Positions 26,745 through 50,821 of a stretch of DNA of 64,000 nt are shown here, one piece after another (position 1 is the first letter of the stretch; the number at the start of each line of letters is the position of its first letter). Below the pieces are notes generated by a model. It ran no database searches, was not told the origin of the DNA, and saw nothing but the letters and a program-made list of their open reading frames with translations. The translations under genes and the position numbers were made by a program. This DNA comes from Rusavskia elegans (taxonomy: Eukaryota; Ascomycota; Lecanoromycetes; Teloschistales; Teloschistaceae), in contig SAUG01000101.1 in the NCBI GenBank assembly GCA_011316305.1, positions 124,001 to 188,000 on the forward strand. Reading direction: 5' to 3'.

Positions 26745-27458
26745 GGTGCCAATTGACTGTCGAAGACTCTCACTTGGACAGTAGTTAGGCGTTCCTGAGC
26801 TGAGCGAATGCTTGGGTCGCTGACCAGTGATGTAAAGAGAGACTGCTGGTTGTTGCTGTTGCTTGAACTGCGCCTTTGAAGCGTAAGGTACGAGTATCCG
26901 AAGCTCGAGTGCCAAGCCTGGAGCTAGGGTCATGTAGGTCAGCAGCCCTATACGTCATGTTGACTGCCCGAATCTCGAGATGCCTTAGTGACACGGCATT
27001 TCCTGCAGCATCCTGCAGACTGTGAGAAGAGACACACCCCACTGTTTACCTTTTCAACCGTGGCGCCCATTCTTCGACACGCAGCGCTGCTCGAAGTACG
27101 CACTCTCTTGTAGGGGCGTCGCAAGTCAGAATATCACGAAAGCCGTTGGTTCCCCAGAAATCCTACCAACGGTTGCCGCTTGGGCAGGGACAATCAACAA
27201 CAATCATTAAAGATCGCTACTTCGTTGTATGCTGATTCTCCATAGCCACTCGAACCCCATTCTATCCATATTTCGATCCAACACCGGCGTCCTCAAGTCT
27301 ATCGAGACCTCGCTACAAGGAGCAGGCACATCAGAATAGCCATGACTCCAGACAACATACAATTCCTTACCTAAGAGCATCTGTTGCCCAAATTACCCTG
27401 CAACCTACACTCGTCTAGCCATCTTCCCTAGCCAGGGTTACGGCTAGCCCTAGCCAGC
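26745..27458. promoter_or_regulatory. Divergent intergenic region between DUF3429 gene and VPS13
   Basis: 714 bp separate two divergently transcribed housekeeping-type genes, both apparently tied to mitochondria or lipid transfer. No TATA box stands out. Short open frames here lack family features. It must hold both promoters, and co-regulation is possible but not shown by any motif I can see. Confidence 0.45.
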
Positions 27459-30400
27459 ATGCTAGAAGGACTCGTCTCAAACCTCTTGAACCGCTTCTTG
27501 GGGATGTACGTCAAGAATTTCAATCCCCAACAACTTAACGTCGGTATCTGGAACGGCGATGTTAAGCTTCGTAATCTGGAGCTGCGGCGAGAGGCTCTGG
27601 ATCAGCTGCACCTACCTGTCAATGTTGTTGAAGGCCACCTCGGCAGTCTCACCATGTCGATCCCATGGACAAATTTGAGAGGCAAACCGGTCAAAATCAG
27701 CATCGAAGATGTGTTCCTACTCGCAGCCCCAAAGGAGGATGCCAAATACGACGAGGAGGAAGAGGCCAAACGCGCACATGCTGTGAAGATGGAGAAGCTC
27801 GAGAATGCGGAGCTGCTGAAGCAGAGGAACTCCGAAGGACTGAGCCAAGAAGAGCAGCAAAAAAGCCAGAGCTTCACCGAAAGCATGACCACCGCCATCG
27901 TCGATAACCTGCAAATCAGCATCAAGAACATCCACATCCGTTACGAGGACACAATTGCCGCGCCTGGCCACCCATTCGCTCTTGGTCTGACACTCAAAGA
28001 ATTTAGCGCGGTCAGTACAGACCAAGATTGGAGACCGAGCTTCATTCAGTCAACCTCGGGAACAACTCACAAGCTTGCGGTACTTGGGGAGCTAGCCTTC
28101 TATTGGAACACCGATGCTACGCTTTTCGGAACCGGGAAGGGGGAAGAAATCGGTGCCGAAGCACAGAAGACTGATCGCGGCGTCCTTATTGACAAGTTCA
28201 AGCAAGCCGTCCAGGACGGGCAGAACCACCAATACATGCTTAAACCAGTCAGTGGACGCGCGGCTGTGGAGCTCGACAAGACTGGCAAAGTGGAGAAGCC
28301 CAAAGTCAAAGCCAGGCTGCTATTCAATGAGCTAGGGTTTGTTCTCGATGAGGACCAGTACCGAGATGCTTTGATGATGGTCGACCTTTTCCACTATTTC
28401 ATCCGTCACCAGGAATATCAAAAGTTTCAGCCCAAGAGCACACCCAAAGAAGATCCAAAAGCTTGGTTGAAGTTTGCTTTCACCGCTGTTCATAGTAAGA
28501 TCCAAGAGCGCAACCGCAAGTGGACGTGGGGATACTTCCAAGAAAGACGCGATGACCGATTGCGCTACATCGAGCTCTTCAAGAAGAAGAAGAAAGAAGA
28601 GAAGCTGAGTCCAGCAGAGACAAGTGAATTGGATAAGCTCGAACGCAAGCTGACCTACGAGGACCTCCGCTTCTGGCGATCACTTGCTCGCAATCAGCTA
28701 AGAAAAGAAAACTTTGGCGTCAAGAAGGCCCCGCAGAAGCAGACTTGGACACAGTGGGTCTGGGGCGGCGGCAAGAAAACAGAGGAGACACACTCGGAAG
28801 ACGAAGGTACCACCATGACCGAAGAGCAACGGAAAGAGCTTTACGCGGCGATCGATTTCGACGAGAAGAAAGCTATTACCGAGAGTGTCGAAGTACCGCG
28901 AGAGTCTATCAAGCTGCAACTTGAGTCGTCACTCCGCACCGGCAGTTTCACCCTCAAAAGAGATCCCCAAGGCAAATCCATCGAGATTCTAAGTATGATG
29001 TTCGACAACTTCCAAGCAAAGGCCCTACAGCGCCCAGATTCCTTCTTAGCAGATGTCAGTCTTGGTGGCCTTCGGATCAATGATGGCACTACCGAAGGGA
29101 GCCTCTTCCCGCAGATTGTCAACGTCAAGGACATGACTTCCGAGGCTGTCAACAAGTCTATAGAAAAGGTTTCAGAGTCAGCAGAGGATCGGAAGGCGAA
29201 AGAAAAGGCGACCGCGGATTCATTGTTCCATCTCATCTTTGAGCAGAATCCACTGGACGAGAGCGCAGACTCCGCAGTCACGGTCAAGCTCAAGAGCATT
29301 GAAGTCATATACAACCCCCAGTTCATTGTGCAGATAGCCAAATTCTTCCAGCCACCGGAACGGCATATGGAATCTATTGGTGCACTTCTTGAGACGGCGG
29401 GTGCCACAGTCGAAGGTATTCGGCAGCAGACTCGAGCTGGTCTTGAATTTGCCCTCGAAGAACACAAGACGCTGAACGCCAACCTTGATATCCAAGCGCC
29501 ATTGATCATTATCCCCGAGAGCATCACGTCAGAAAGTTCGCTCTGTCTCGTCTTTGACGCTGGCCATGTCAGCCTTAATAGCGAGCTTGTTGACAAGGAC
29601 ACTATGCGAGATATTCAGTCAAAGCAGAAAAAGAAATACAGTGACGAAGATTTCAAGCAACTCGAAGGTCTGATGTACGACAAATTCTTGCTCAAACTGG
29701 ACTCTACCCAGGTCCTGATAGGACCCGGTATGAAGGCTACGAAAGGCCAGTTGAGTGCAAAGGACGATTCCAAGAATTACCATATAATCGATCGTATCAA
29801 TATGGACTTCGTTCTGGAGACATCTATCATCCCAAAAGCCAGCGATCTGACCAAGACTCGTGTCTCAGGGCATCTATCTGTACTGCATGCCTCTATCTCA
29901 GATAAGAAGTACAAGAACTTGATGAAGCTCATCGACATCGCACTTCCCAAGTTTGAGTCGGACGACGGATCTTCCGAGAGCAAGCCTAAGGATGCTCCGA
30001 GGAAGCAAGTGCCAGCCGCAGGACAGTCCAGGGCTGATGAAGCTCTTGGTCGTTCACGGTCTAAGTCTATCAGCGTTCCTGCTCAGAAAGACTTAGTAGT
30101 CGAAGACGAAAGTGACGCCGAAGATGTCCAAGCAGAGCAGACCACGAAACGCTTGGAGGAGGAAGGGATCAATCTCCACCAACGCAATTTCGAATTCAAA
30201 TTTACTGTCGATAAATTGCAAGGATCTCTGTTCCGTGCAGATCCAGATGAAACCAAGCCCGACCAACTTCTCGTGGAACTGGTAGCAGAGCACTTCGAGC
30301 TGGACTTCTACCTACGACCATATGATATGGTAGCCGAGGTTCTTCTGAAGTCGTTGAACGTCGATGACTACATTGATGAAGACCCCAGTCCGGAATTCAG

Positions 30401-33400
30401 GAAGATCATCTCCAGTCGTGGTTTTGGTGCCAAGGAAGACAAGGATCTCTTCAATATTAAGTTCGTCAAAGTGAATAACGATTCTCCGGAGTTCAAGTCA
30501 ACCTATGAAGGGATAGCCACCAATCTCGACGTTTCAATATCCACCCTGAATGTCATCGTCACTCGCAAAACATTGCTTACGCTTCTGGACTTTGTTCTGA
30601 TAACATTTACCGGTGCAGACCAACCGTCTCAACCAGCCAAATCGATTCAAGATGGCCCAGATGGAAAGACTGTAGAAACGCAGGCGTCAGAATCTGGTGG
30701 GAGCTCAGACAAAATTCGTATCAAGGTTGCACTCGAAAGTGTTGCGCTAATACTGAACAACGACGGTATCCGGCTTGCTACACTTAGCCTCAATACGGCT
30801 GATGTGGGAATATTCTTGAGTGGCGAATCCATGAACGTGGGCGCTCGACTTGGGAACTTGCTCTTGCTGGATGATATCAATCAAGGAGCATCGGAAGATT
30901 CTTCCCTGCGTCAATTGATTTCAATTCAGGGCGATGAGCTTGCCGACTTCAAGTACCAGACTTTTGATTCAAAGGCCGCCTCATATCCTGGCTATGATTC
31001 CAAGGTTTATCTCAGATCGGGATCTCTCAAGGTCAATTTTCTAGAAGAACCTTTCCGCAAGATCATCGGCTTCCTTGTCAAATTCGGTCAAATGCAGGCA
31101 ATCTTCAATGCAGCCCGGCAGGCGGCGGCCAACCAGGCGAGTCAGATGCAGGAGACTGCGAACATGATGCACTTTGATATTCTCATCAAAACACCAATCG
31201 TTGTATTCCCACGCGTAATGAAAGTCGAACAAGAACGTGACCTGCTCACAGCGTACCTCGGTGAAATCTACGCAAGCAATGACTTCGAGGCTCTGGAAAA
31301 ATCAGGGACTTCTGCTACCGTGAACAAGATTTCCGCGGGCATACGGCACGTCCGTTTGACATCCGACTTCCATTACGAAGGCGGCAAATCAGAGGAGTTG
31401 GAGATGATCGACAAAGTCGATCTGGACTTCAAAGTGTCTTATGTGGAACATCAGCCTGGCCTCCAAAGACCTGACATGCAGATCGAGGGAAGCATGTCCC
31501 CGATCAATCTTTGCGTAGCGCAAACGCAATTGAAGTTCTTGATGGAGCTGTCAAAGACGATACCAAGTGCATTCGCGAATGACACTGAGCAGGGCGAAAA
31601 CGAGATCATGAAGGAGCTGCCAAAGTCGACTACAGACTCTGCCAAGGAGGTCACCAGTCGCAGCCCAAACGCAGAAACCGCTGCCGCACATCCGTCATAT
31701 CAGGGCCCCGAGCTGAAACCAGATTCCGAGAGCTGGACCAAGCTGGACTTCGTGTTCAAAACTCAAACTATATCGCTGGAGCTTATCTTGGCGGACGAGA
31801 GTGCTCCCGTGGGAAATGTCGCTGATGCTAGCCTATCGAAGTTTGCATTGAACGACACTAGTATCAAATTACGAATGAAGAGCGACGATGCACTTGAGTC
31901 GGAGCTTCTGGTGAACTCATTCACTATACAAGACAGTCGCACAAAGGAGACGAATAAGTTTAGGAAGATCATGTCTTTGATCAATAACGATGTCAAGCAG
32001 CAGTTCATGGCGAGCTTGACTATATCGGGAGGTCAAAAGCGGCACATGATCGCTATGCTCACTATCGACAGTCCTCGCATCATCCTTGCCATAGATTATC
32101 TCTTCGCCGTCCAGGCCTTTGCGAATACCGCTTTTGCAACAGACGAAGCTGAAACGGTCTCCGTTGATGCAGAGGATACTCCCGAAATCGATGAGCAGGA
32201 GAGTGGTAGCAGCACGCCGGTCGATGATAAATCCGAAGTTGCCAAGGAGAAGTCACAAGAAAAAGCTCCGGAAGAAAGCTCAATGACCATGTCTTTCCGC
32301 GTCAACGTCGTGGACGCTCAAGTCATACTCATTGCAAACCCTACAATCTCCAATTCCGAAGCTATTGTGCTTGGGACCAAGCAGGTTTTGCTATCTCAGC
32401 AGAATGCTTCGACTTTGCAAGTCACCAAAGTTGGAATGTTCCTTTGTCGAATGGACAAATTCGAGACAAGTCAGCTGAAACTCCTAGATGACTTTACAAT
32501 GCAAATGTCGATGGACAATCAGTCCAAAGGCTCCAGTTCATCGCTGACCAGTATATCCATCGACATTGAGCCACTTGTCCTACGGCTGTCGCTACGGGAT
32601 ATTCTTCTGGCTCTGCAGATTATTAACAAGGCTTCCGAAACCCTGGGCGGCAACAACAAAGAGGTAGAGGATACTGAGCCAGGTAAGATCAAAGAAATCG
32701 CTGGGGAAGCCAACGCTGGAGCGCCGAAACGAAAATCACTCGCTGCTCAAGCAACGTCAACGAAAGCCAGAAGAGCCAGTAAATCTCTGGCTCCAACAAA
32801 GAGCGACAAGTCACAAGCGAAGAAAGCACCCCAAACATTAATCGTAATGAAGCGCGAGGAGCTGACTGCTACGATGGAAGGTGTTCGTGTCATTCTGATC
32901 GGAGATCTACACGAACTCCCGTTGATCGATTGGAGTGTCAAGAAGTTCAATGTGGACGTACGGGACTGGTCGGCAGCAATGACCGCGGATACAAGTTTCG
33001 ACACATACATCAACGTCTATAACTTCTCGAAATCTGCGTGGGAACCATTAATTGAACCATGGCAATTAGGCTTCCATGTGTCGAAAGACCAAGACCCAGA
33101 GCACTTATCTGTCGATGTGTATTCTCACAAAATGATGGAGCTGACGGTGACTTCTGCAACTATTGCACTAGCTTCAAAATCCGCACGATTCTTGTCTACC
33201 GAAGAGGATGTGCTGTCTAAGCCCCGAGGAGCAGACGCGCCGTACAAAATACGGAATTACACTGGCTTTGATCTCAACGTGTGGGCAGCCGCTGAAGAGG
33301 AAGATCGAGGAAGTGCGGCCAAACTCACGGACGGCGAGGAAGCCCCGTGGCGGTTCCAGGACGCCACGACAATGCGAGAAAACCTGTCACCAGAAGGCGC

Positions 33401-36400
33401 TACTGGCGTCGTTGGCATCAAGCTTGAAGGTAGCGGCTTCGAGAGTGTTGAACGCATTCCGGTCAATCGCGAAGGGGAAACGCTCTACAATCTTAAGCCT
33501 CGGAAAGACAAGGTTCTTCATCGATTACTTGTTGAGGTGAAGCTAGGAAGCGACAACGTCAAGTATATCACGTTCCGGTCACCGCTTGTGGTTGAAAACA
33601 ACACACAGATTCCCGTAGAACTTGGAGTCTTCAGCCCGGAAGAGGGTAACATTCTCAAAATCGAGAAGATTCCGCCTGGAGAGGGACGGCCTGCTCCGGT
33701 TGGTGCAGCCTTCATGCATTCGCTTATCGTTCGGCCTGATCAAGGCTTTGGTTACGCGTGGTCGAATGAGCGTCTGTTCTGGAAAGATCTGATGAAGCGC
33801 TCAACGAGAACCATCACTTGTAAAGGCGAGGGCAACGAACAGTCTCCACCTTTCTACTTCCAAATGAACGCCACTTATGACAAAGTCAACCCTCTGACAA
33901 GGTAAGTCGTGTCAATGGTTACGTGTCCAGGCATTGCTAACAGACGATTGGGTAGTGTCTATCCTTACATGCGCATCAAACTTCATGCCCCTATCGAGCT
34001 TCAGAACTTATTGCCTTATGACTTCAAATACCGCATCTATGACAAGAACACTAAGAAGGACTGGACGAACTTCCTGCGGAAAGGGGGAGTGAGTCCCGTA
34101 CATGTTGTGGAATTATCCCACCTGTTGTTGTTGAGTGTCGATATGCAAGATACGTTGTTCAAGCCAAGCGAGTTTGCGGTGATCAATTCCAACACCCATG
34201 AAGACTTCCGTCGGGAGTCTGTGCTTGCGGTCAAAGACAAGGAGAACAGCCAACTCAACCTCAAGTTGCATTACTTGTGAGTGTCTGAGTGTCCTGGTTA
34301 ATGCAACAACTAATCTCGAGTAGCAATATCCCGGACAGCGGTGGTGCCTTCAAGATCACAGTGTATACGCCGTACTTGGTATTGAATAAGACTGGCCTAG
34401 ACATCAATATCCAGAGCAAATCCATGTTCTCTGCAGCTAAATCAGCCGCTGGGCAAGGCGTCCGGACTGAGTCGGACAGAGGAACCCAGAAAGCTTTGCC
34501 TTATATGTTCTCCTATCCCAGCGATGACAGGAAGAACCGCGCAACGCTTAAGGTCGGAGACTCGTCATGGAGCAAGCCGCAGAGCTTTGATGCAATTGGA
34601 AGCACTTTCGAGGCAGTCCTTCCCTCAACAACATCGAAGTCAGAGCTTAGCGTCGGCGTCTCCGTTGCCGAAGGCGAGGGCAAATACAAGTTGACCAAGG
34701 TAGTCACCGTTGCGCCGCGCTTCGTGTTGAAGAACAAGCTGAAGGAGGAGATCAACATCCGCGAACCTGGATCATCAAACACCATGTCCTTGAAGCATGG
34801 TGAGTTATTGCCATTGCGCTACCTAAAACAGAGTAGCCACAAGCAGCTCTGTCTCTGCTTCCCCGGAGTCAACAACCAGTGGTCATCACCTTTTAACATT
34901 TCAAACGTTGGCACTGTTCACGTCAAGCTCGCTAAGGCTGGTCAACGTCAGACACTCGTGCGGGTCGAGGTAATCATGGAAGCTGCAACCATATTCTTGC
35001 ATCTCAGTGTCGAGACCAAGCATTGGCCTTATTCGATGCGCAACGAAAGCGATATGGAATTCATGTTCTATCAAGTCAATCCAAACCTAGGAGAGGACGA
35101 AGATGACAGAGGCTCCGCGTGGAAACCAATACGATACCGCCTGCCCGCAAGAAGCATCATGCCTTACGCCTGGGACTATCCTGCCTCCAAGAATAAGGAG
35201 TTAGTCTTGACAGCCAACGGCAAAGACCGAAGAATAAAACTCGCAGAGATTGGAAACCTTGTTCCGATGAAAGTACCGGCAGCTCAAGGCTCTAAGCAAC
35301 AGAAGATCATAGACGTCAACATTGCTGCCGATGGCCCAACGCAAACACTGGTCTTGTCAAATTACAAGCCATCGAAGAGCTTGTACAAGCAGAAGACCGG
35401 CCAAAACTCTCAAGGAAGCGTGGCCACCGGCTTCGAGGTCAAGGAGTTGGAATCCGAGGTGACCTTCAAAGCACAGCTGCGTCTTGCCGGTATTGGCATT
35501 TCCTTGGTCAATAAGAATCTTAAAGAATTGCTTTACTTTACGTTCCGAGAAATCGAATTCAAATACAGCGAATCGAGACTGTACCAGACGCTCAACGCTA
35601 CGATCAAATGGATCCAGATTGACAATCAGCTGTACGGTGGTATATTCCCCATACTGCTGTACCCCAGCGTGGTGCCCAAGACCGGCAAGGAGATGGAAGC
35701 TCATCCGATCTTCCATACTATGCTTACCCGCGTCAAAGATGATTCATACGGGGTACTGTATATCAAGTATGCCACTCTGCTGCTACAACAGATGACGCTC
35801 GAGATCGACGAGGATTTTATCTTCGCTATGCTTGACTTCGCCAAGATCCCTGGAGCATCATGGGCAGAAGAGCACGAGGGGAAGTTATGCGACGAAGACC
35901 TCGGCATTCCCGAACCGAAGCAAGAACAACAAGGTCAAGACGTCTACTTCGAGCTGCTCCATCTCCAGCCCATGCAGCTGGATCTGTCCTTCGTCCGGAC
36001 CGAGAGAATTAACGCGGAGGATACGACCTCGTCATCTAATCCCCTGATGTTCTTTGTCAACGTCATGACCATGTCTGTCGGAAACGTCAATGATGCGCCT
36101 CTTCGTCTCAATGCATTAATGTTGGAAAATGCACGTATCTCCATTCCGGCATTGATCGTCAACATTCAGGGTCACTATACACAAGAGGTCATCCGGCAAA
36201 TTCACATCATCTTGGGCTCTGCAGACTTCCTTGGCAATCCAGTTGGACTCTTCAACAACATCAGCTCCGGCGTTGCGGATATCTTCTATGAGCCTTACCA
36301 AGGACTCGTCATGACCGACCGACCGCAGGAGCTTGGTATAGGCATTGCCAAAGGCGCGTCGAGCTTTGTCAAGAAATCCGTCTTCGGCTTCTCTGACAGC

Positions 36401-37156
36401 ATGGCCAAGTTCACCGGCAGTATGTCGAAGGGTCTGGCAGCTGCAACTCTCGACAAGGAGTACCAAGATCAACGACGCATGTCCAAGTCTCGGAATCGAC
36501 CCAAGCATGCTCTTTATGGCGTGACATCTGGCGGCAATGCATTCGCCTCGAGCATGGCCAGTGGCATTGGCGGCCTCGCAAGACATCCACTGCAAGGTGC
36601 GGAGAAAGAAGGGTTGCCTGGGTTTGTCAAGGGAGTCGGCAAAGGCTTCCTTGGGCTGGCAACCAAACCCGCGATTGGTGCCTTTGACCTTGCGTCGAAC
36701 ATGGCCGAAGGAGTGCGGAACACTACGACGGTATTTGACGCCGAGGGCCTCGACCGTGTCCGCTTAACTCGCTTTATTGGCTTGGATGGCATCGTGCGGC
36801 CATATGCTCAGAGAGAAGCCCTGGGACAATTCTGGCTCAAGACCCTTGATGATGGCAAATACTTCCATGAGGACTACATTGCGCACCTAGAACTCCCGGG
36901 CAAAGACATGATGGTCATGCTGACGTACAACCGGATCATGCTGGTCAAGACGAAGAAATTGAAAATGGAGTGGGATATCAAATTGAACGACATCCAGACG
37001 ATCTCGAAGGAACGGACGGGTATGGGAGTGACTCTGAAGGGAGGAACGAACGGACCGTTCATCCCGGTGCAGGAGGAGAGCTCGAGGAATTGGCTGTACA
37101 GACAGATTGGGGTGGCGGTGAATGCGTTTAATGACAAGTATAATGCCAAGGGATGA
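27459..37156 (+). CDS. VPS13: VPS13 bridge-like lipid transfer protein
   Basis: Three exons, 27459-33901, 33956-34276 and 34324-37156, with introns of 54 and 47 nt, give 3198 aa; yeast Vps13 is about 3144. The family moves phospholipids in bulk between membranes at contact sites (vacuole/endosome, mitochondria, ER, prospore membrane). The N-terminus (M-L-E-G-L-V-S-N-L-L-N-R-F-L-G-x-Y-V) is the chorein domain, about 1-110, which opens the lipid groove. Alternating beta-rich repeats fill the middle. The adaptor-binding (VAB/SHR-BD) region starts near residue 1925 (Y-K-I-R-N-Y-T-G-F-D-L). The C-terminus has the ATG2-like region with G-x-x-x-G helices (about 2850-3000) and a PH-like end. Both introns sit in the last third. 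Acidic low-complexity segments near residues 470 and 880 are likely loops. It is the largest and best-defined gene in the window. Confidence 0.96.
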
Positions 37157-42148: not shown

Positions 42149-43145
42149 TTAAACAACCATCACCCTCCCCGGCCCCGGCAGGAACTTTTCTAATTCGCAT
42201 TGCGAAACACACGCCGTGTAATCCGTCTATTACCCCCAAATCAAATCAGCATATTGCTTTCGATTCAAGGAAGGAGGGGAGAGAGCCCGGGAGGGGGGAA
42301 GTATGAAAGGACGAACCTTTCCTAGGCATTTCACTTGGCAGTTCCTGGCGACGGAGTTGAGGATGTTTTCTGCTGTTACGGGGGGTGCTTTCATTTGGGG
42401 TCGGGTGGGGAAGGTGGGTGGGAGTGTTGATGGGGAGGATGTTGTTAAGGATGAGGTCGAGGTTGAGGTTGAGGATATAATTGTGGAGGGGGAAGGGAAG
42501 ATGAGGAGGCCCGGGGCATCGAGCTGGATTTGATTGTTGATGATGTGGCAGTTTGAGAGGCAGGTTGGGAGGTCCATTTGCTATACCGGTGGCAGTTAGG
42601 ATTGAGGCTGTAGAGTGGTGGAAAGAGGGTAGGGGGAACACGGGAAGGACAATACGTACGATTTGTTTGCAATATTCTGTACACCTTTCTACATCGGTCA
42701 TGCTACTCGTCGCCGGGACAGAAGTGGGGATGATGGGTATGGTGGTGGTAGAAGATGAAGAGCTCGTCCCTTGACTGGGTACAGTGGGTGGAATAATCGG
42801 TATGGCCACCAGAGTTGTTGGTACGGCTGTTGGGATGATTCCCACTGGTGCTGTCGTTGATGGCAGTGGTGATGCCGTTACGGGTACGAGCGTTGAAGTA
42901 TTAGAGGATGCACCATCGGCGATAGGTGTTGCGGTGACAACGCTGAGTGAGAGGTTGAGATCTGCGGGAACGGCGGTGGGGATTATTGGGACGAAAGGGG
43001 CGGATGAAGAGGTGGTTGTGGAGGTTGTGACGGTGTTTGTGACGGTCACTGTTTCGACTTTTTCCCGGCGATGCGGTTTGAGCGGAGAGGAAAGGGTGGA
43101 GGAGATGAGAGAGGTGAGGAGGGAGAGTATAGTGAGAGTATGCAT
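42149..43145 (-). CDS. Secreted protein with four C-x3-C pairs and IIP-repeat linker
   Basis: Three exons, 43145-42660, 42580-42317 and 42226-42149, with introns of 79 and 90 nt (both phase 0), give 275 aa. A signal peptide is clear (M-H-T-L-T-I-L-S-L-L, cut near residue 20), followed by a dibasic site. Residues 32-145 are Thr/Ser/Pro-rich with four copies of [VI]-[PG]-I-I-P-x-x-V-P. All eight cysteines lie in four C-x3-C pairs: 155/159 with 169/173, and 243/247 with 256/260, separated by a Ser/Thr/Pro linker. No GPI or membrane segment is seen. I do not recognise the family; the spacing resembles helical-hairpin disulfide peptides. Exons 2 and 3 would be missed by reading only the longest frame. 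A cell-wall or effector-like role is inference. Confidence 0.78.
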
Positions 43146-44244
43146 GATTGGTGATTTGGAGGACAAATTGAACTTCAGTGGAACGCGAAAATGCAGCGAC
43201 TGCAGATCTGAGTGACAGTGAGAAATCAGAATGAAGATGGCACGAAGCCTGCGTTGAGTACCGATGATAGTGCGATATGCTGTTTGACTCCGATGTGGAA
43301 GGAGCTCTTTGTACATAAACACCTGCAAACGGATCATACACATGCAAACAGCCCCGCCCACGAATCTGCATCCTTCTGGGAGGCTTGGTGGCAACCATCG
43401 TTAATGTCCCTCGCTACTGCTAGGCTCATGATATTGGAGTCCTAATTATGTGTGCAACATTGGGCTTGGAGAGCGCTTGTTTCGAGTTGCTGTGTGGGGG
43501 TACACAGCCTCGTTCTAGGAAAGATCCCTCCCAGGTTCTCCAAGAGCCCATGCGGTTGTAAATTCTTACGCTATGTTTCAGCAGCCACTTAAAAACCGAA
43601 CCATGATCTTTTGTCGATTGGAGGTGTCCAAGGGAGAAGATGTTGGGGGAGTCTGGGATTCGTACATCGGACGTTCAGGGGCACGTAGCACCTCCACTTG
43701 TACATTTGCGGACACCTTCATCGTCAAGCAATCCGAAAGAGCTCGATAGGTATAGCGCGGTGACAGAGCGTTGGTGCTTGAAGATAGAGATCGTCGGAGT
43801 ACCTGTCTCGTTTGCTGGTTGATCCGAAGGTTGCGAGGCAACTGCCATTGTTCCTCGCACATTCTTTCTGTGCCCCGGAGTCTGCAGTATCAGCCTGAGA
43901 TGATAGCAAGGAAGCGGAAAGGTCACGCGACCATGTGAGAACGGATTGAGCTGGTATTAGATAGGCAAGATGGAGTGATTGTTCGTTGGGGATGATGTCA
44001 TGATCGCCAAGCCTTGCGCGGCCTTGGCAATGATATGGCCACGTCGCTGCCTCCTCTTTCATCGACCTGACAGGCTAACAGACTGACTTCCATCTCATGG
44101 CTGAAAGATCGACGTCATGCTGAGAGATGGACTTGCTCTCGAGTGTGAAAGACATCATGGTGACGACCTCTACCTTGTGCCGCCAGCTTGATGCATAATG
44201 TTGTAGAGGCCAAGAAGACCAGTGAGAGGGACTGAACCATCGGC
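43146..44244. other. Intergenic region, no convincing gene
   Basis: Divergent promoters of the secreted-protein gene (-) and the NACHT gene (+) must lie here. Overlapping short frames on both strands (60-110 codons) show no family features or consistent splice structure. Confidence 0.4.
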
Positions 44245-46512
44245 ATGGCTTCGACAGCCGCAGTCAGCTTGTGGGATAGAGCTGTCGGCTCTTTGACTGA
44301 CGAAGACAAGCAATCCATCGACTTCTCGCGGACCGACAAATCCACCATCCTAGAAGACGTCTTACAAGCTGCCGAGTCGAAGAAGCAGCTGTGCCTGCAG
44401 AAACGGTGGAAGTACACCAAGAAGACGGGCCATGTCATCATCCTCCGTGATCTCTGCGAAAAGATGATCAAATGGGTCCAGAAGTTCAAGGAGATTGGTG
44501 ATATCGCCGTTCAGTATGACCCGTCGCACGCATCCTTACCTTGGGCCGCTGTTCGCTTCTTCTTGCAACTTTCAGTCAATGATGTGCAGATGTTCGGCGC
44601 GATGGCTGAAGGTCTGGAGACGGTGGCCGGTCAGATCACCCGCTGCCACCTGTACGAGCAGCTTTATCTATCTCGGTCCTCCTCCGCTCGAGTTGACTTT
44701 GAGTCGCTCTTGCTGCGTCACTACGCCGGCATTTTGACGTACCTGGCCACTGTAAAGCGATACTACACCAAGAGCACAATTCGTAGACTCGGCGCAAGCG
44801 CCTTCGAGTCATCCGAGTCTGTCGATGCTTCTCTTTGTAAGATCGCTGCCGGACGTGATGAAGTCGAACGCTGCGCACGGCTCATCGACAGCGACCTCCT
44901 CCAAGGTATCGATAGCACCACCCGAGTTATGGATAGCACCATCACGCAGACTCAGGCGTCAGTCAATGCTCTAGCTGATGATCTCAAATCGCTCACGACC
45001 ACTATGTCTATTTCTCAGGATGTCCAGTATCAATCCTTGAAGGCTATGTTGGCGTCATTTGATCAATCAATATTGCGTACAGCTGCTCAGGTATACGACA
45101 TCCATGCCAATTTGAAGAAAACAGAAAGGCTTGGAATCTTGAAATGGCTATCGACTGTCAAGTACAGAGAACACCATAGGACTTCGATCAGTGCTGTTAT
45201 GCCAGGGTCTGGGGCATGGCTGCAACAAAAGCCAGAATTCATCGACTGGAAAACGTCTAGTACTTCGTCAATCCTCTGGATACGTGGTATTCCCGGTTCC
45301 GGAAAAAGCAAGCTGATGTCTACCATAATTCAAACCCTTCTTGACGATAAGTCGCAGAATACGGCCAGTTCAGCTTTTGCCTACTTCTATTGTACTCGGG
45401 ATGAAGCCGAGAAAGCACGTGCAGACCCAGACGAGATCATGCGAGCTGCACTGAAGCAGTTAGCTTGTTTTGATGCCTCGCAGCCAATCCATGCTGCTGT
45501 GTTCCGCGAATATAACAAGAGACAGAAAGATGCCGACGAGGATGGTTCAGACCCCTCGAAACTTACACTCCAGGACTGTAAAGAACTCGTTCTCGAAATC
45601 GCCGATCAGCTACCGATTATTGTCATAATCGATGCTTTGGATGAGTGTGACCCTCTGAGGCGACACGAGCTACTCCAAGCTCTCAGGGATATTGTCCAAA
45701 ATTCCAACAATCTGGTCAAGCTCATGGTATCGAGTCGCAATGATCCAGATATTGTCTGCCGATTGATCAATGTGCCAAACGTCTATATTAGCTCCGACGA
45801 CAACGGTGATGACGTCGATCGGTTTGTAGAGCAAGAACTGGATAAAGCAATCGATGAACAAAGATTGTTACAGGGGCGTGTTTCTGCTTCCCTACGGCAG
45901 CGAATGCTTGAAAATCTGAGAAGTCGTGCTCATGGAATGTTCCTCTGGGCTCGGCTACAGATCCAAAATCTGTGTGATCCGGAGCGAATGATCGTGGTAA
46001 GCGACGTTGAGGATGCCTTGCACCGATTGCCTGCCACACTCTCTGGACTCTATAGTGATATCATGGGTCGTATTGACCGGATAGCTCCTCATGGTCGACT
46101 ACTAGCCATGAATACACTAAGGTGGCTACTCTGTGCTCGAGCACCTCTGCAGCCGTCAACCCTGGTGGAGATGCTGCAGTCGAGTGGATCTGATGATCCT
46201 CCCCATGTACAAGAAGTCTTGGGTCTCTGTTGCAACCTTGTGGTCCTAGACGACTCTTTGGACCTCTTTCGCTTTGCTCATACTTCGGTACGTGAGTATC
46301 TTGAGTTACAGCCAGGGTTTAGCTCCCAAGACACCAATCTTCAGGCCGCACAAGAGTGTCTTCGGCAGGTAGCCAGTACCCCCAAGGCCTCCTCCCTTAC
46401 GAGTTTCACTCGGTACGCTCGTCGCTTCTGGGTTGGTCATTATAGTGCTCTCGATTATCAATTCCGAATAGCGCAGCCACTTGCAAATGAGGTCAAAAGC
46501 TTCTTCATCTGA
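44245..46512 (+). CDS. NACHT-domain STAND receptor, N-terminal part (ends at in-frame TGA)
   Basis: 755 codons from the ATG at 44245 (GGCATGG context) to TGA at 46510. Residues 1-225 match the fungal NACHT_N domain (S-L-W-D-R-A, D-F-S-R-T-D-K, K-R-W-K-Y, A-V-Q-Y-D-P-x-H-A-x-L-P-W-A-A-V-R-F). A helical linker leads to the NACHT ATPase: Walker A G348-I-P-G-S-G-K-S, Walker B 458-469 (I-I-V-I-I-D-A-L-D-E-C-D), and a sensor-like S-S-R-N-D-P at 496-501. A winged-helix-like segment follows to about 720. Such proteins act as NLR-like receptors in fungal self/non-self recognition and heterokaryon incompatibility. The frame continues past the TGA into ankyrin repeats and a USP-like domain (next entry), so this is most likely the first part of one 1255-codon gene. 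If translation stops here, a receptor without its sensor would be made. Confidence 0.88.
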   Translation: MASTAAVSLWDRAVGSLTDEDKQSIDFSRTDKSTILEDVLQAAESKKQLCLQKRWKYTKKTGHVIILRDLCEKMIKWVQKFKEIGDIAVQYDPSHASLPWAAVRFFLQLSVNDVQMFGAMAEGLETVAGQITRCHLYEQLYLSRSSSARVDFESLLLRHYAGILTYLATVKRYYTKSTIRRLGASAFESSESVDASLCKIAAGRDEVERCARLIDSDLLQGIDSTTRVMDSTITQTQASVNALADDLKSLTTTMSISQDVQYQSLKAMLASFDQSILRTAAQVYDIHANLKKTERLGILKWLSTVKYREHHRTSISAVMPGSGAWLQQKPEFIDWKTSSTSSILWIRGIPGSGKSKLMSTIIQTLLDDKSQNTASSAFAYFYCTRDEAEKARADPDEIMRAALKQLACFDASQPIHAAVFREYNKRQKDADEDGSDPSKLTLQDCKELVLEIADQLPIIVIIDALDECDPLRRHELLQALRDIVQNSNNLVKLMVSSRNDPDIVCRLINVPNVYISSDDNGDDVDRFVEQELDKAIDEQRLLQGRVSASLRQRMLENLRSRAHGMFLWARLQIQNLCDPERMIVVSDVEDALHRLPATLSGLYSDIMGRIDRIAPHGRLLAMNTLRWLLCARAPLQPSTLVEMLQSSGSDDPPHVQEVLGLCCNLVVLDDSLDLFRFAHTSVREYLELQPGFSSQDTNLQAAQECLRQVASTPKASSLTSFTRYARRFWVGHYSALDYQFRIAQPLANEVKSFFI

Positions 46513-48012
46513 GGGATACAAGACGATAATACGTTCGACTGGTGCGCAGGAGACGTAGACGTGGACGGAATTTTTTTACTCATCACACGAAAAATCAGAA
46601 TCCGACCACCAATACACCTGGCTTGCGTGTACGGCTTACTCGAAGTTGTGCACACGATGCTTGTCAGTCCAGGTATCGATGTCGACTTAACGGACAGTCG
46701 AGGTGCAACATGCCTCTACCTAGCTGCCTGCCATGGCTACCTAGGTGTTGTGGAGGTCCTACTGATGCGGAGTGCTGACCCTAACATCCTCACTGGTTTT
46801 CACGAAGCTGCGTTACATCGTGCAGCAGAATCTGGCCATGAGGCGATTGCTCTGTTACTGCTGCAGAACAACGCAGACATTACAGTCCAAGATGATCAAG
46901 GGTGGACTGCATTGGATTGGGCTGTAAAAGGGGATCATGAGGCGATGGTTCGGCTGCTGATCTTGAATGGCTCCCGCAGCGAAGCCATGCAAAAGTACGG
47001 ACGACATTTGATCGACTGGGCGGAAGGAAACAGCTCGTCGAGAGCCCAGTATGATGTCCTGAGCATCCTTCATCGAGCTACTGGCTGCGTCGGGATCAAG
47101 TACGAAGGTCAGACAGGTTATCTGAACGCCGTTCTTCACTTATTGTATTCAATATTACCGTTTCACGATCTTCTTAGGCAGGCCTCAGCGGACGAGGACC
47201 AGATATCAGTAGGCAATGCGTTGAAAAGCCTGTTCACGGAGATGGAAACTTCGGTAGAAATAGTCTTGACAAGGGGTCTGCCTGTTGCTTTCGATTGGGA
47301 GTCCTGGCAACTTCACAAGCCCAATGATGCCTTCCGGATGTTTCTCAAACTTATGGCTCTCCTCGTCAATCATTTCAAGAAAGATCGGGTACACGAGCGC
47401 TTCGGGGACTCCCTAACCATAGCTTACAAAAATCTCTTTTGGTCCGAAACAGCAGATCTTCGGTCAGAGGCGGAGTTGGGGATCACTGTCGACGCTAAAG
47501 GCAACGAGACTTTCGAACAAGCTCTTAAGCAATTTGGCAAGGACGAAAACAAAGAGTTGCCACGATACGGTTTCCCCCGTTGGCAACTGAGCTACTCGCC
47601 TCCTGTCATGGTGTTCGAGCTCCGGCGCTGGCAGTACAACATGCAGAATAATGATATGGAGAAGGTCCACGATCGCTGCACATACCCAGCCAACTTGATC
47701 ATCGACCTCACCACCTCCCAGAAAATTCCTTACATCCTGCACGGTGTCATCGTGCACCGTGGCGATTTTTCATTCAGCGCGAAGATCTTCATCTACCTCA
47801 AGTCACACCATACAGGCCGTTGGATCCGTTGCCGAAATGAACTCGTCACATGGGCGACCGAAGAAGAGGTCTTCGAAGGTAATTTCGGTTCCGACACCAA
47901 ACCAGAAAGACTCATCACAAGCTGCACGGCTATAGGCCTGATCTACATTCAGGAAGACAAGATTGATGAAATAGCAAGGGTGATGATACCATATAGTGAG
48001 CCGCAGGAATAG
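46513..48012 (+). pseudogene. Ankyrin repeats plus USP7-like pseudo-deubiquitinase, continuation of the NACHT gene
   Basis: Same frame as the NACHT part, open from 46513 to TAG at 48010, with no ATG near its beginning (46561 is GTG). Numbering continues from 44245. About 787-910 are four ankyrin repeats (P-I-H-L-A-C-x-x-G, A-A-L-H-R-A-A-E-S-G-H, T-A-L-D-W-A). From about 947 the sequence follows the catalytic domain of USP7/Ubp15: V-G-I-K-Y-E-G-Q-T-G958-Y-L-N (family G-L-K-N-Q-G-A-T-C-Y-M-N), then H-G-V-I-V-H-R-G-D (family H-A-V-L-V-H-S-G-D), K1180-I-F-I-Y-L (family H-Y-V-V-Y-L), and T-E-E-E-V-F-E-G-N-F-G. The triad Cys, His, Asp is replaced by Gly958, Lys1180 and Arg1197, so no protease activity is expected. 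Whether the gene is dead, read through, or misassembled at the TGA is open. Confidence 0.82.
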
Positions 48013-49337: not shown

Positions 49338-50221
49338 CTACCTCGCCGCCGGTTCGTTCGCCGGTGGCGCACCTCCAAGCGGCGCAGATCGCTGAGCGCC
49401 TGGCTGTCCCCCACCCGTCCTCTTGCTCCTAAAGCAGCATTAGCATACCCTACTCAAACCGAACCACCAGATGTCTGGGACAAGAAAACTCACATGACGT
49501 AGCGACTGCCCATGCTAATAACGATCATGAATGCCCAGCTCGGTATATTCGCCGTCGCATACAGGACATACCCCAACGGAAGATTCAGCCCGGCCTTGGC
49601 CGCCCAGCCGTCGAAAGGGTGCAACGCCCCTTCATAAACAGGTCGTTTCTCGTACGTTTTCTGCGTGTGGATCTTCACGATATCCGCCGCCGTCACGGTC
49701 GTAGTGTTCAATCCCAATTTACGAATTGTCGTCGCGGGGGTCGATTGGTCCGGCCCTGCGACAGGCAGTTGGATGTGCCAGATAGTCGGCACGCTCGCCG
49801 CCCAGGTGGTGCAAAGAATGGGAGATTGATCGCAATGTACGTATCCGAGGTTCGGCGCCGTGGGGTCAGCGGCCAACAGCGCGGCGGACTCATTCCAGGC
49901 TTTATCGACGACGGCGCAACGCCCGTAGCAGGATTTATTACCGCCGGAGAAAAGGACCATCCATTCTTCTGGGCCTTGGGAGGGTCCAGAGGAGGGGGAG
50001 GGGGAGAGAACGGATTGCCAATTGGAGGAGGTGAGGGTCACGACGTTGTTGGCGGCGGCTTTTGCTGCGGTGGAGGCAACGGGGGCGGTGGCAGCGGAGG
50101 GGATGTAGGATTTTGCTTTTTCGAACCATGATTGGAGGTTTTCGGAGAGAGGTTTTTGTTGTTGTTGGGCGGCTGTGAGGAGGGGGAGGATGGACAGAAG
50201 AGATGAGGTGGTGAGGCGCAT
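49338..50221 (-). CDS. Thioredoxin-like, probably ER, membrane-anchored protein
   Basis: Two exons, 50221-49494 and 49428-49338, with a 65-nt intron (GTGAGT, TAG), give 272 aa. A signal peptide (residues 1 to about 18) precedes an amphipathic helix (W-F-E-K-A-K-S-Y-I-P) and a thioredoxin-like fold, with E-E-W-M-V-L-F-S-G-G-N-K-S-C98-Y-G-R-C102. The two Cys are three residues apart, not two, so ordinary disulfide exchange is doubtful. L-G-Y-V-H-C-D and V-P-T-I-W-H-I fit the fold. A membrane segment lies at about 217-238. The second exon adds a Gly/Pro/Ala-rich tail (S-K-R-T-G-G-G-Q-P-G) as in fungal homologues I recall; reading only the first exon loses it. Exact role unknown. Confidence 0.83.
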
Positions 50222-50821
50222 GTTGGCGATCCTGGAGATAAGGGCGTTTCAAAGGTTATTTTTGGATTGATCAGTTGGTGGTAGGAGGGTGTCTTGGATC
50301 TGGCGGTGGATGAAGCGCGATGATGGATTGAAGATACCAGGAGGATGAGGAACGAGGAAATGACTTTAGGTAGAAGCAATTGGAAGCAAGAGGCCAGATG
50401 CAAGTATTGATGCGACTGCCTTGTTCGGTAGGTGGTCGGGACAAGGACATTGTCTTGGTGCTCTAGTTCCAAATGAGCCTAGCTTATCCGGCGCCAGCGC
50501 TTCGATTGTTTCAGGGGCTCATGTCTTGGCAGTGACAGGGTCTCGAAGTGAACACCTGGAGGCTGTAACATTAAACGACTCGTCCATAAGGTAACAAGGC
50601 CTTCTCAAGCTTGGCTACAGATCCATCCTTCTCATACACATATGAGCCTCTCCACTAAAGGGGATAGCTAAGGCTATGTGTAAAGCGACCATTGTATAAG
50701 TGTCAAGACCATTCAACAACATCCTCAACGGTCGCCCGCCGAGCTTTCAATTCGCCTCGAGTCACCTCAAGCATCTGCAGAAGAACCAGCTAGACACCTT
50801 CCTTCTCCGTTCACCTTAATC
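50222..50821. promoter_or_regulatory. Divergent intergenic region
   Basis: 600 bp between the start of the thioredoxin-like gene (-) and that of the membrane protein (+). No gene seen. The minus-strand open frame at 50038-50472 is low complexity and overlaps the promoter. Confidence 0.4.

Follow-up and report, generated by a model that had tools for sequence, protein, structure and literature searches.

A NACHT-ankyrin receptor of Teloschistaceae with a USP7/Ubp15-type domain that lacks the catalytic triad, a candidate recognition module

In the window (the whole stretch of Rusavskia elegans DNA that was analysed, 64,000 nucleotides) we observed a gene for a fungal NLR of the NACHT-ankyrin type, behind whose ankyrin repeats there is a domain of the USP7/Ubp15 type with none of the three catalytic residues. 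We favour, with a probability of roughly 0.57, the reading that a Ubp15/USP7 catalytic domain, taken up by a NACHT-ankyrin NLR of Teloschistaceae, became a non-catalytic recognition module. The locus spans positions 44245-48012 of the plus strand and has the following layout.

44245..46509, plus strand: first open frame, 755 aa, with the ATG at 44245; NACHT_N/DUF7708 helical N-terminal domain (approximately residues 1-211), linker, NACHT and winged helix
44245..44877, plus strand: N-terminal helical domain (Pfam: NACHT_N PF17100, residues 20-178; DUF7708 PF24809, residues 72-211)
45205..45741, plus strand: NACHT / NPHP3_N nucleotide-binding domain, residues 321-499 (Pfam); Walker A at 45286, Walker B at 45616
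46087..46305, plus strand: winged-helix domain, GPIID_WHD, residues 615-687 (Pfam)
46510..46512, plus strand: in-frame TGA between the winged helix and the ankyrin repeats; no stop at this place in the full-length relatives aligned
46513..48009, plus strand: second open frame, 499 aa, with ankyrin repeats and pseudo-USP (ORF and Pfam); TAG at 48010-48012
46603..47007 (end approximate), plus strand: ankyrin repeats, four stretches by PF00023 (Pfam)
47080..48009, plus strand: apparently catalytically dead USP7/Ubp15-type domain with thumb, fingers and palm (profile, PDB sequence search, predicted fold, alignment)
47116..47118, plus strand: Gly codon at the catalytic Cys position, Gly958 (alignment)
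47782..47784, plus strand: Lys codon at the catalytic His position, Lys1180 (alignment)
47833..47835, plus strand: Arg codon at the catalytic Asp position, Arg1197 (alignment)

The residues of the receptor are numbered with the TGA counted as residue 756. Walker A (GIPGSGKS) occupies residues 348-355 and Walker B (IIVIIDALDECD) residues 458-469, exactly where the initial annotation, made from the sequence alone, had placed them, and the NACHT_N, NACHT and four ankyrin stretches that it listed were all matched by Pfam. The E-values in the first frame are 5.2e-8 for NACHT_N, 6.3e-12 for DUF7708, 4.3e-36 for NPHP3_N, 8.5e-7 for NACHT and 7.3e-7 for GPIID_WHD; in the second frame, the four ankyrin stretches score 2.1e-22. 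The locus hence has two marks of a fungal NLR (STAND NTPase), that is, a NACHT domain with Walker A and B and C-terminal superstructure-forming repeats, the latter being situated 3' of the TGA in the window copy. As for the N-terminal effector domain, NACHT_N, a profile termed Goodbye-like in the consulted part of PMC9815663, scores above its Pfam cut-off; the model of this domain is helical (pLDDT 75, pTM 0.62), and its fold matches are non-diagnostic. Eight of the 11 positions of residues 1-320 that are invariant among 40 aligned relatives fall in DUF7708 (residues 72-211; 44458-44877, plus strand), whose function Pfam lists as unknown.

The surroundings of the locus include a long frame at 42249-43400 (minus strand) with an internal signal-peptide-like start, repeated proline/threonine motifs and no Pfam match at 0.001, which is perhaps a secreted low-complexity protein beside the NLR. 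The frame at 49493-50248 (minus strand) has a signal-peptide-like start and paired cysteines resembling those of thioredoxin-like proteins, also with no Pfam match at 0.001. A VPS13 homologue is situated at 27432-37153 (plus strand) in two long frames, and the gap in its adaptor-binding domain looks like an intron.

The assignment of the C-terminal domain to the USP7/Ubp15 type, already made in the initial annotation, was borne out by several approaches. The domain matches UCH (PF00443) at 7.6e-18; the genome-wide PF00443 search finds it independently (2.6e-17) as one of 21 UCH places in the 44-Mb genome, a number that includes the window's own place and, in some cases, exons of one gene. USP7 ranks first in the PDB sequence search (2e-26) and is the best match of the predicted fold. 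Profile and structure, proposed earlier as a check on this domain, thus agree on a USP (peptidase C19) fold over its whole length. The MATH (N-terminal) and UBL (C-terminal) domains of full USP7/Ubp15 are absent from the receptor, as judged from the frames and Pfam.

To characterize the catalytic site, we used two alignments. The first combined three Ubp15 with 21 NLR-USP sequences, one of them the window copy; the second comprised 18 NLR rows, with P0003, P0012, P0020, P0024, P0028 and P0030 omitted as gapped or degenerate. At the Cys position, the 21 rows have Gly in 15 cases, Asp in P0003, Pro in P0028, Ser in P0024, His in P0020, Ala in P0030 and a gap in P0012, the alignment itself being unsure in the degenerate rows without Gly. 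As the further relatives P0125-P0127 also have Gly, it occurs in 18 of the 23 sequences with a residue here, and Cys in none. Among the 18 rows, the His position is occupied by Lys (10), Arg (1), Asp (2), Asn (1) or a gap (4), and the Asp position by Arg (8), Gln (4), Leu (1), Glu (1) or a gap (4); the gaps arise because some gene models end or skip early. In both alignments taken together, His was found at its position in none of 17 sequences and Asp at its own in none of 18. At the neighbouring aspartate, which the consulted part of PMC10867860 describes as the fourth critical residue, 10 of 14 rows of the second alignment have Asn and 2 have Asp. The window copy has Gly958, Lys1180 and Arg1197 at the three positions, just as first annotated; one residue is inserted immediately before the His position in the alignment, so that Ala is an alternative to Lys, and the residue is not His either way. 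With no Cys-His-Asp triad, the domain is, by its residues, catalytically dead.

A search with the first frame yielded 181 relatives, of which the best 120 were considered. Where a name is attached, the 38 nearest (49-84% identity) come from lichen fungi, among them Calogaya, Polycauliona, Gallowayella, Xanthomendoza, Squamulea, Variospora, Gyalolechia, Usnochroma and Ikaeria. PF00443 accompanies NACHT-class and ankyrin profiles in 14 of these 38, and four more (P0020, P0024, P0028 and P0030, the Teloschistes and Seirophora rows) show weak USP traces; the rows from Flavoplaca and Calogaya gave no detectable USP, and PF00443 was found in none of the remaining 82 of the best 120 (P0039-P0120). 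The search with the USP part of P0001 gave 15 NLR-USP proteins, two of them new relative to the first-frame matches, and two Ubp15; outside NLRs it matched only Ubp15, although such searches rank by shared words and have limited reach, so that an unrelated fusion elsewhere is possible. When shorter proteins were allowed, the window's own USP part retrieved five more ankyrin pieces, four of them with PF00443, the nearest being a fragment without NACHT from Xanthoria sp. (84%). Overall, at least 16 of the listed proteins, which belong to several genera, show the NACHT-ankyrin-USP order. Squamulea and Xanthoria, Gyalolechia, and Ikaeria, on which the taxonomic placement rests, are Teloschistaceae of three subfamilies; the fusion is thus retained over the family.

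A tree was built from 11 of the 21 NLR-USP rows, the three Ubp15 and, from this genome, five further USP loci. In it, the NLR-USPs form a single clade (support 100/100) and fall with Ubp15, split from the five other USPs at 99/99, with few rows and long branches. By descent, the domain therefore belongs to the USP7/Ubp15 subfamily. The branch to the NLR-USP clade comprises 1.49 changes per column; the Ubp15 rows weakly form one group (67/67), and several rows of the tree are long-branched. A separate Ubp15 on contig 153 has intact GATCYLN, GHYY and FDDD boxes. In the simplest history, the catalytic domain of Ubp15 would have been taken up once, ahead of the split into subfamilies, and catalysis would have been lost afterwards.

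We then compared the constraint on the parts of the domain in the 10 complete NLR rows of the 18 aligned and in the three Ubp15. Among the NLR-USPs, the mean identity of the thumb is 0.55, that of the fingers 0.42 and that of the palm 0.63; the three Ubp15 pairs show 0.58-0.75, 0.52-0.79 and 0.46-0.65, respectively, these figures being rough, as they come from three rows, of which P0124 ends early and this genome's own Ubp15 holds intron residues. The order is thus reversed: the fingers are the fastest part in the NLR-USPs, and the palm changes most in the three Ubp15. Between the NLR-USPs and Ubp15, the mean identity is 0.34 (thumb), 0.15 (fingers) and 0.32 (palm). The fingers of USPs hold the body of ubiquitin, and their divergence here is unlike what would be expected if the domain still held it. 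Among the 135 columns invariant in the three Ubp15, 41 are kept in the NLRs, 30 are fixed (at least 80%) to another residue and 64 vary; the fixed replacements include Cys to Gly and His to Lys/Arg, each in 10 of 10 rows. This pattern suggests that much was replaced and then held, and the 30 columns are hard to reconcile with plain decay, although shared ancestry contributes to them. In the last third, the window copy shows identities of 0.82, 0.82, 0.76, 0.55 and 0.74 to five relatives; for NACHT, the values are 0.87, 0.87, 0.77, 0.75 and 0.72.

The initial annotation described the receptor as one reading frame with a single TGA. Its coordinates and the shared frame are right; strictly, these are two frames, and several relatives also seem broken at or near the junction. 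No further stop occurs in the 499 codons after the TGA, at whose position the full-length relatives aligned are open. The identities to P0011 for the window copy (in brackets, for P0001 and P0003) are 0.59 (0.55, 0.56) in the ankyrins, 0.17 (0.21, 0.18) in the 28-residue junction, 0.49 (0.59, 0.41) in the thumb, 0.45 (0.44, 0.38) in the fingers and 0.76 (0.71, 0.70) in the palm; the thumb compared with P0022 gives 0.49 (0.58, 0.41). The part after the TGA as a whole shows no clear acceleration; the window junction is slightly further from the outgroups than that of P0001, and the distances of the thumb and junction may reflect some loosening of constraint. Since this part is near its relatives and has no other stop, the break is recent, an error, or tolerated; the window copy could represent a null allele, a gene lost recently or an error in the sequence.

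Several relatives seemingly have the receptor split into a NACHT half and an ankyrin-USP half, at differing points, and a two-gene state, introns or repeated breaks are possible. P0004 and P0126 seem to be halves of one gene, split slightly further on than the window TGA; P0129 starts just after the position of the window's break; P0035 and P0128, with consecutive gene numbers in Pyrenodesmia, are split earlier, where an intron is possible; and P0002 has an apparent frame change within the ankyrins. Recurrent loss of the sensing end together with long retention would fit presence/absence variation of receptor genes.

If the domain became a recognition module, it would have been taken up behind the ankyrins once, early in Teloschistaceae. 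The palm would have been held, probably because it maintains the fold and touches the other parts of the receptor; the thumb and, above all, the fingers would have changed fast, as would a surface tracking a changing ligand. With STAND NLRs as the model, reading of the ligand would fall to the pseudo-USP together with the ankyrins, and binding of the ligand (a parasite effector or toxin, or a changed self-protein) would free NACHT to oligomerise, the helical N-terminal domain then being exposed for a cell-death response. On the other hand, the window copy is interrupted, and relatives have lost, broken or degraded the ankyrin-USP end, which would also fit a dispensable part; shared ancestry explains part of the fixed columns, and relaxed constraint could also yield fast fingers. 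It is a tentative possibility that the family senses attack on the fungal ubiquitin system, the pseudo-USP baiting parasite factors that bind USP7-type domains or reading a ubiquitin-like ligand, and triggers fungal cell death inside the lichen.

A strict integrated decoy, the idea raised initially, in which the dead USP would mimic host Ubp15 and be targeted by a parasite effector directed against Ubp15 or ubiquitin removal, seems to us rather unlikely. A dead, Ubp15-derived, C-terminal domain on an NLR, like other proposed decoys, was indeed found, and the source protein persists as a separate gene elsewhere in the genome, active-looking by its motifs; the same proposal was made for the CHK-2-derived kinases of Sordariales NLRs in the consulted part of PMC12258605. 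Close mimicry, however, did not hold up, as the mean identity to Ubp15 by part is only 0.15-0.34, compared to 0.46-0.79 among the three Ubp15, with the fingers fastest and the long branch (1.49). Moreover, the MATH and UBL domains, to which the known viral partners of USP7 bind, were not taken along.

We consider it improbable that the domain, with Gly for Cys, binds ubiquitin or its chains uncut and lets the NLR monitor the ubiquitin balance. The residues that presumably hold the ubiquitin tail are often kept: in the 18 rows, Asn218 in 14, Trp285 in 15, Asp295 in 14 and Arg408 in all 17 with a residue, and with the degenerate rows included (21 rows), Asn218 in 13/21, Trp285 in 13/18 and Asp295 in 13/20. 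For an exchange of Cys to Ala, as distinct from the Gly seen here, the part of PMC6172466 consulted describes a 10-150-fold gain in ubiquitin affinity for Ubp8 and USP4, as a clash is lost. However, ubiquitin hardly varies, whereas conservation is lowest in the fingers (0.42; 0.15 to Ubp15), unlike in Ubp15. PMC7391069 (consulted in part) describes an aromatic residue that immediately follows the catalytic His and makes contact with Gly75 of ubiquitin, stabilising it; at this position, 13 of 14 rows of the 18-row alignment and 14 of 15 of the 21-row one have Ile, Val or Ser. Charged residues stand for His in 13 of 14 rows and for Asp in 9. A ubiquitin-like ligand is the one most disfavoured by the pattern of the fingers and the loss of the aromatic, as compared to a Ubp15-directed effector or a changed self-protein.

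Similarly, we give little credence to a decaying passenger, that is, a fused USP with no present role that is lost stepwise. The interruptions close to the junction, in the window copy as in relatives, the weak or undetected USP in the Teloschistes/Seirophora and Flavoplaca/Calogaya rows, respectively, and a Cys position that is neither Cys nor Gly in 5 of 20 rows would agree with it; retention over three subfamilies, the conserved palm, the 30 columns fixed to new residues, and the stop-free 499 codons with no clear acceleration overall argue against it. An artefact of assembly or gene joining, named beforehand as a possible refutation and suggested by the one TGA in the frame, is refuted for practical purposes by the identical domain order in the relatives, with the proviso that some of them show the gene in two pieces.

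To our knowledge, fungal NLRs are numerous, and the sensed ligand is known for few of them. Here the sensing end would be a recognisable enzyme domain, kept over the family, with a known fold and an intact-looking relative in the same genome, which makes the ligand question directly testable. The setting is the lichen, in which algae, bacteria and parasites live alongside the fungus. The domain adds an enzyme class to those integrated in fungi, beside the CHK-2 kinase of PMC12258605 (consulted in part). In line with the initial annotation, which knew of none, no description of a NACHT-ankyrin-USP protein was found in the literature searched: the main text of PMC12258605 has 'ubiquitin' solely in a reference title, and that of PMC4986451 contains neither 'ubiquitin' nor 'UCH'.

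The domain agrees with the catalytic domain of USP7 and fungal Ubp15 in fold, in length and in where it ends on the C-terminal side, but it lacks the triad Cys, His and Asp and the MATH/UBL domains, its fingers have diverged, and the aromatic after His is replaced in most rows. Like the plant NLRs, receptors with foreign, often inactive integrated domains, it combines a receptor with such a domain, although the receptor here is of the fungal NACHT class. With the fungal NACHT-ankyrin NLRs (the T-NACHT/ANK class in the consulted part of PMC12258605; Dyrka et al. 2014, PMC4986451) it shares the NACHT_N-type N-terminus, NACHT, winged helix and ankyrins, but has the USP domain behind the latter, which was seen in none of the 82 further rows of the best 120 relatives. 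The available part of PMC12258605 reports 185 non-canonical domains in 378 of 4613 Sordariales NLRs, with the CHK-2-derived kinases proposed as integrated decoys at a BLOSUM62 distance of 0.32-0.45 to their source, a measure different from the identities used here. The receptor here differs from these kinase NLRs, as described there, in its enzyme, in that the catalytic residue is missing from every sequence that has a residue at a triad position, and apparently in a greater divergence of the domain from its source (by different measures); in both cases, a conserved host enzyme domain was apparently taken up once, at the C-terminus, and kept over the lineage.
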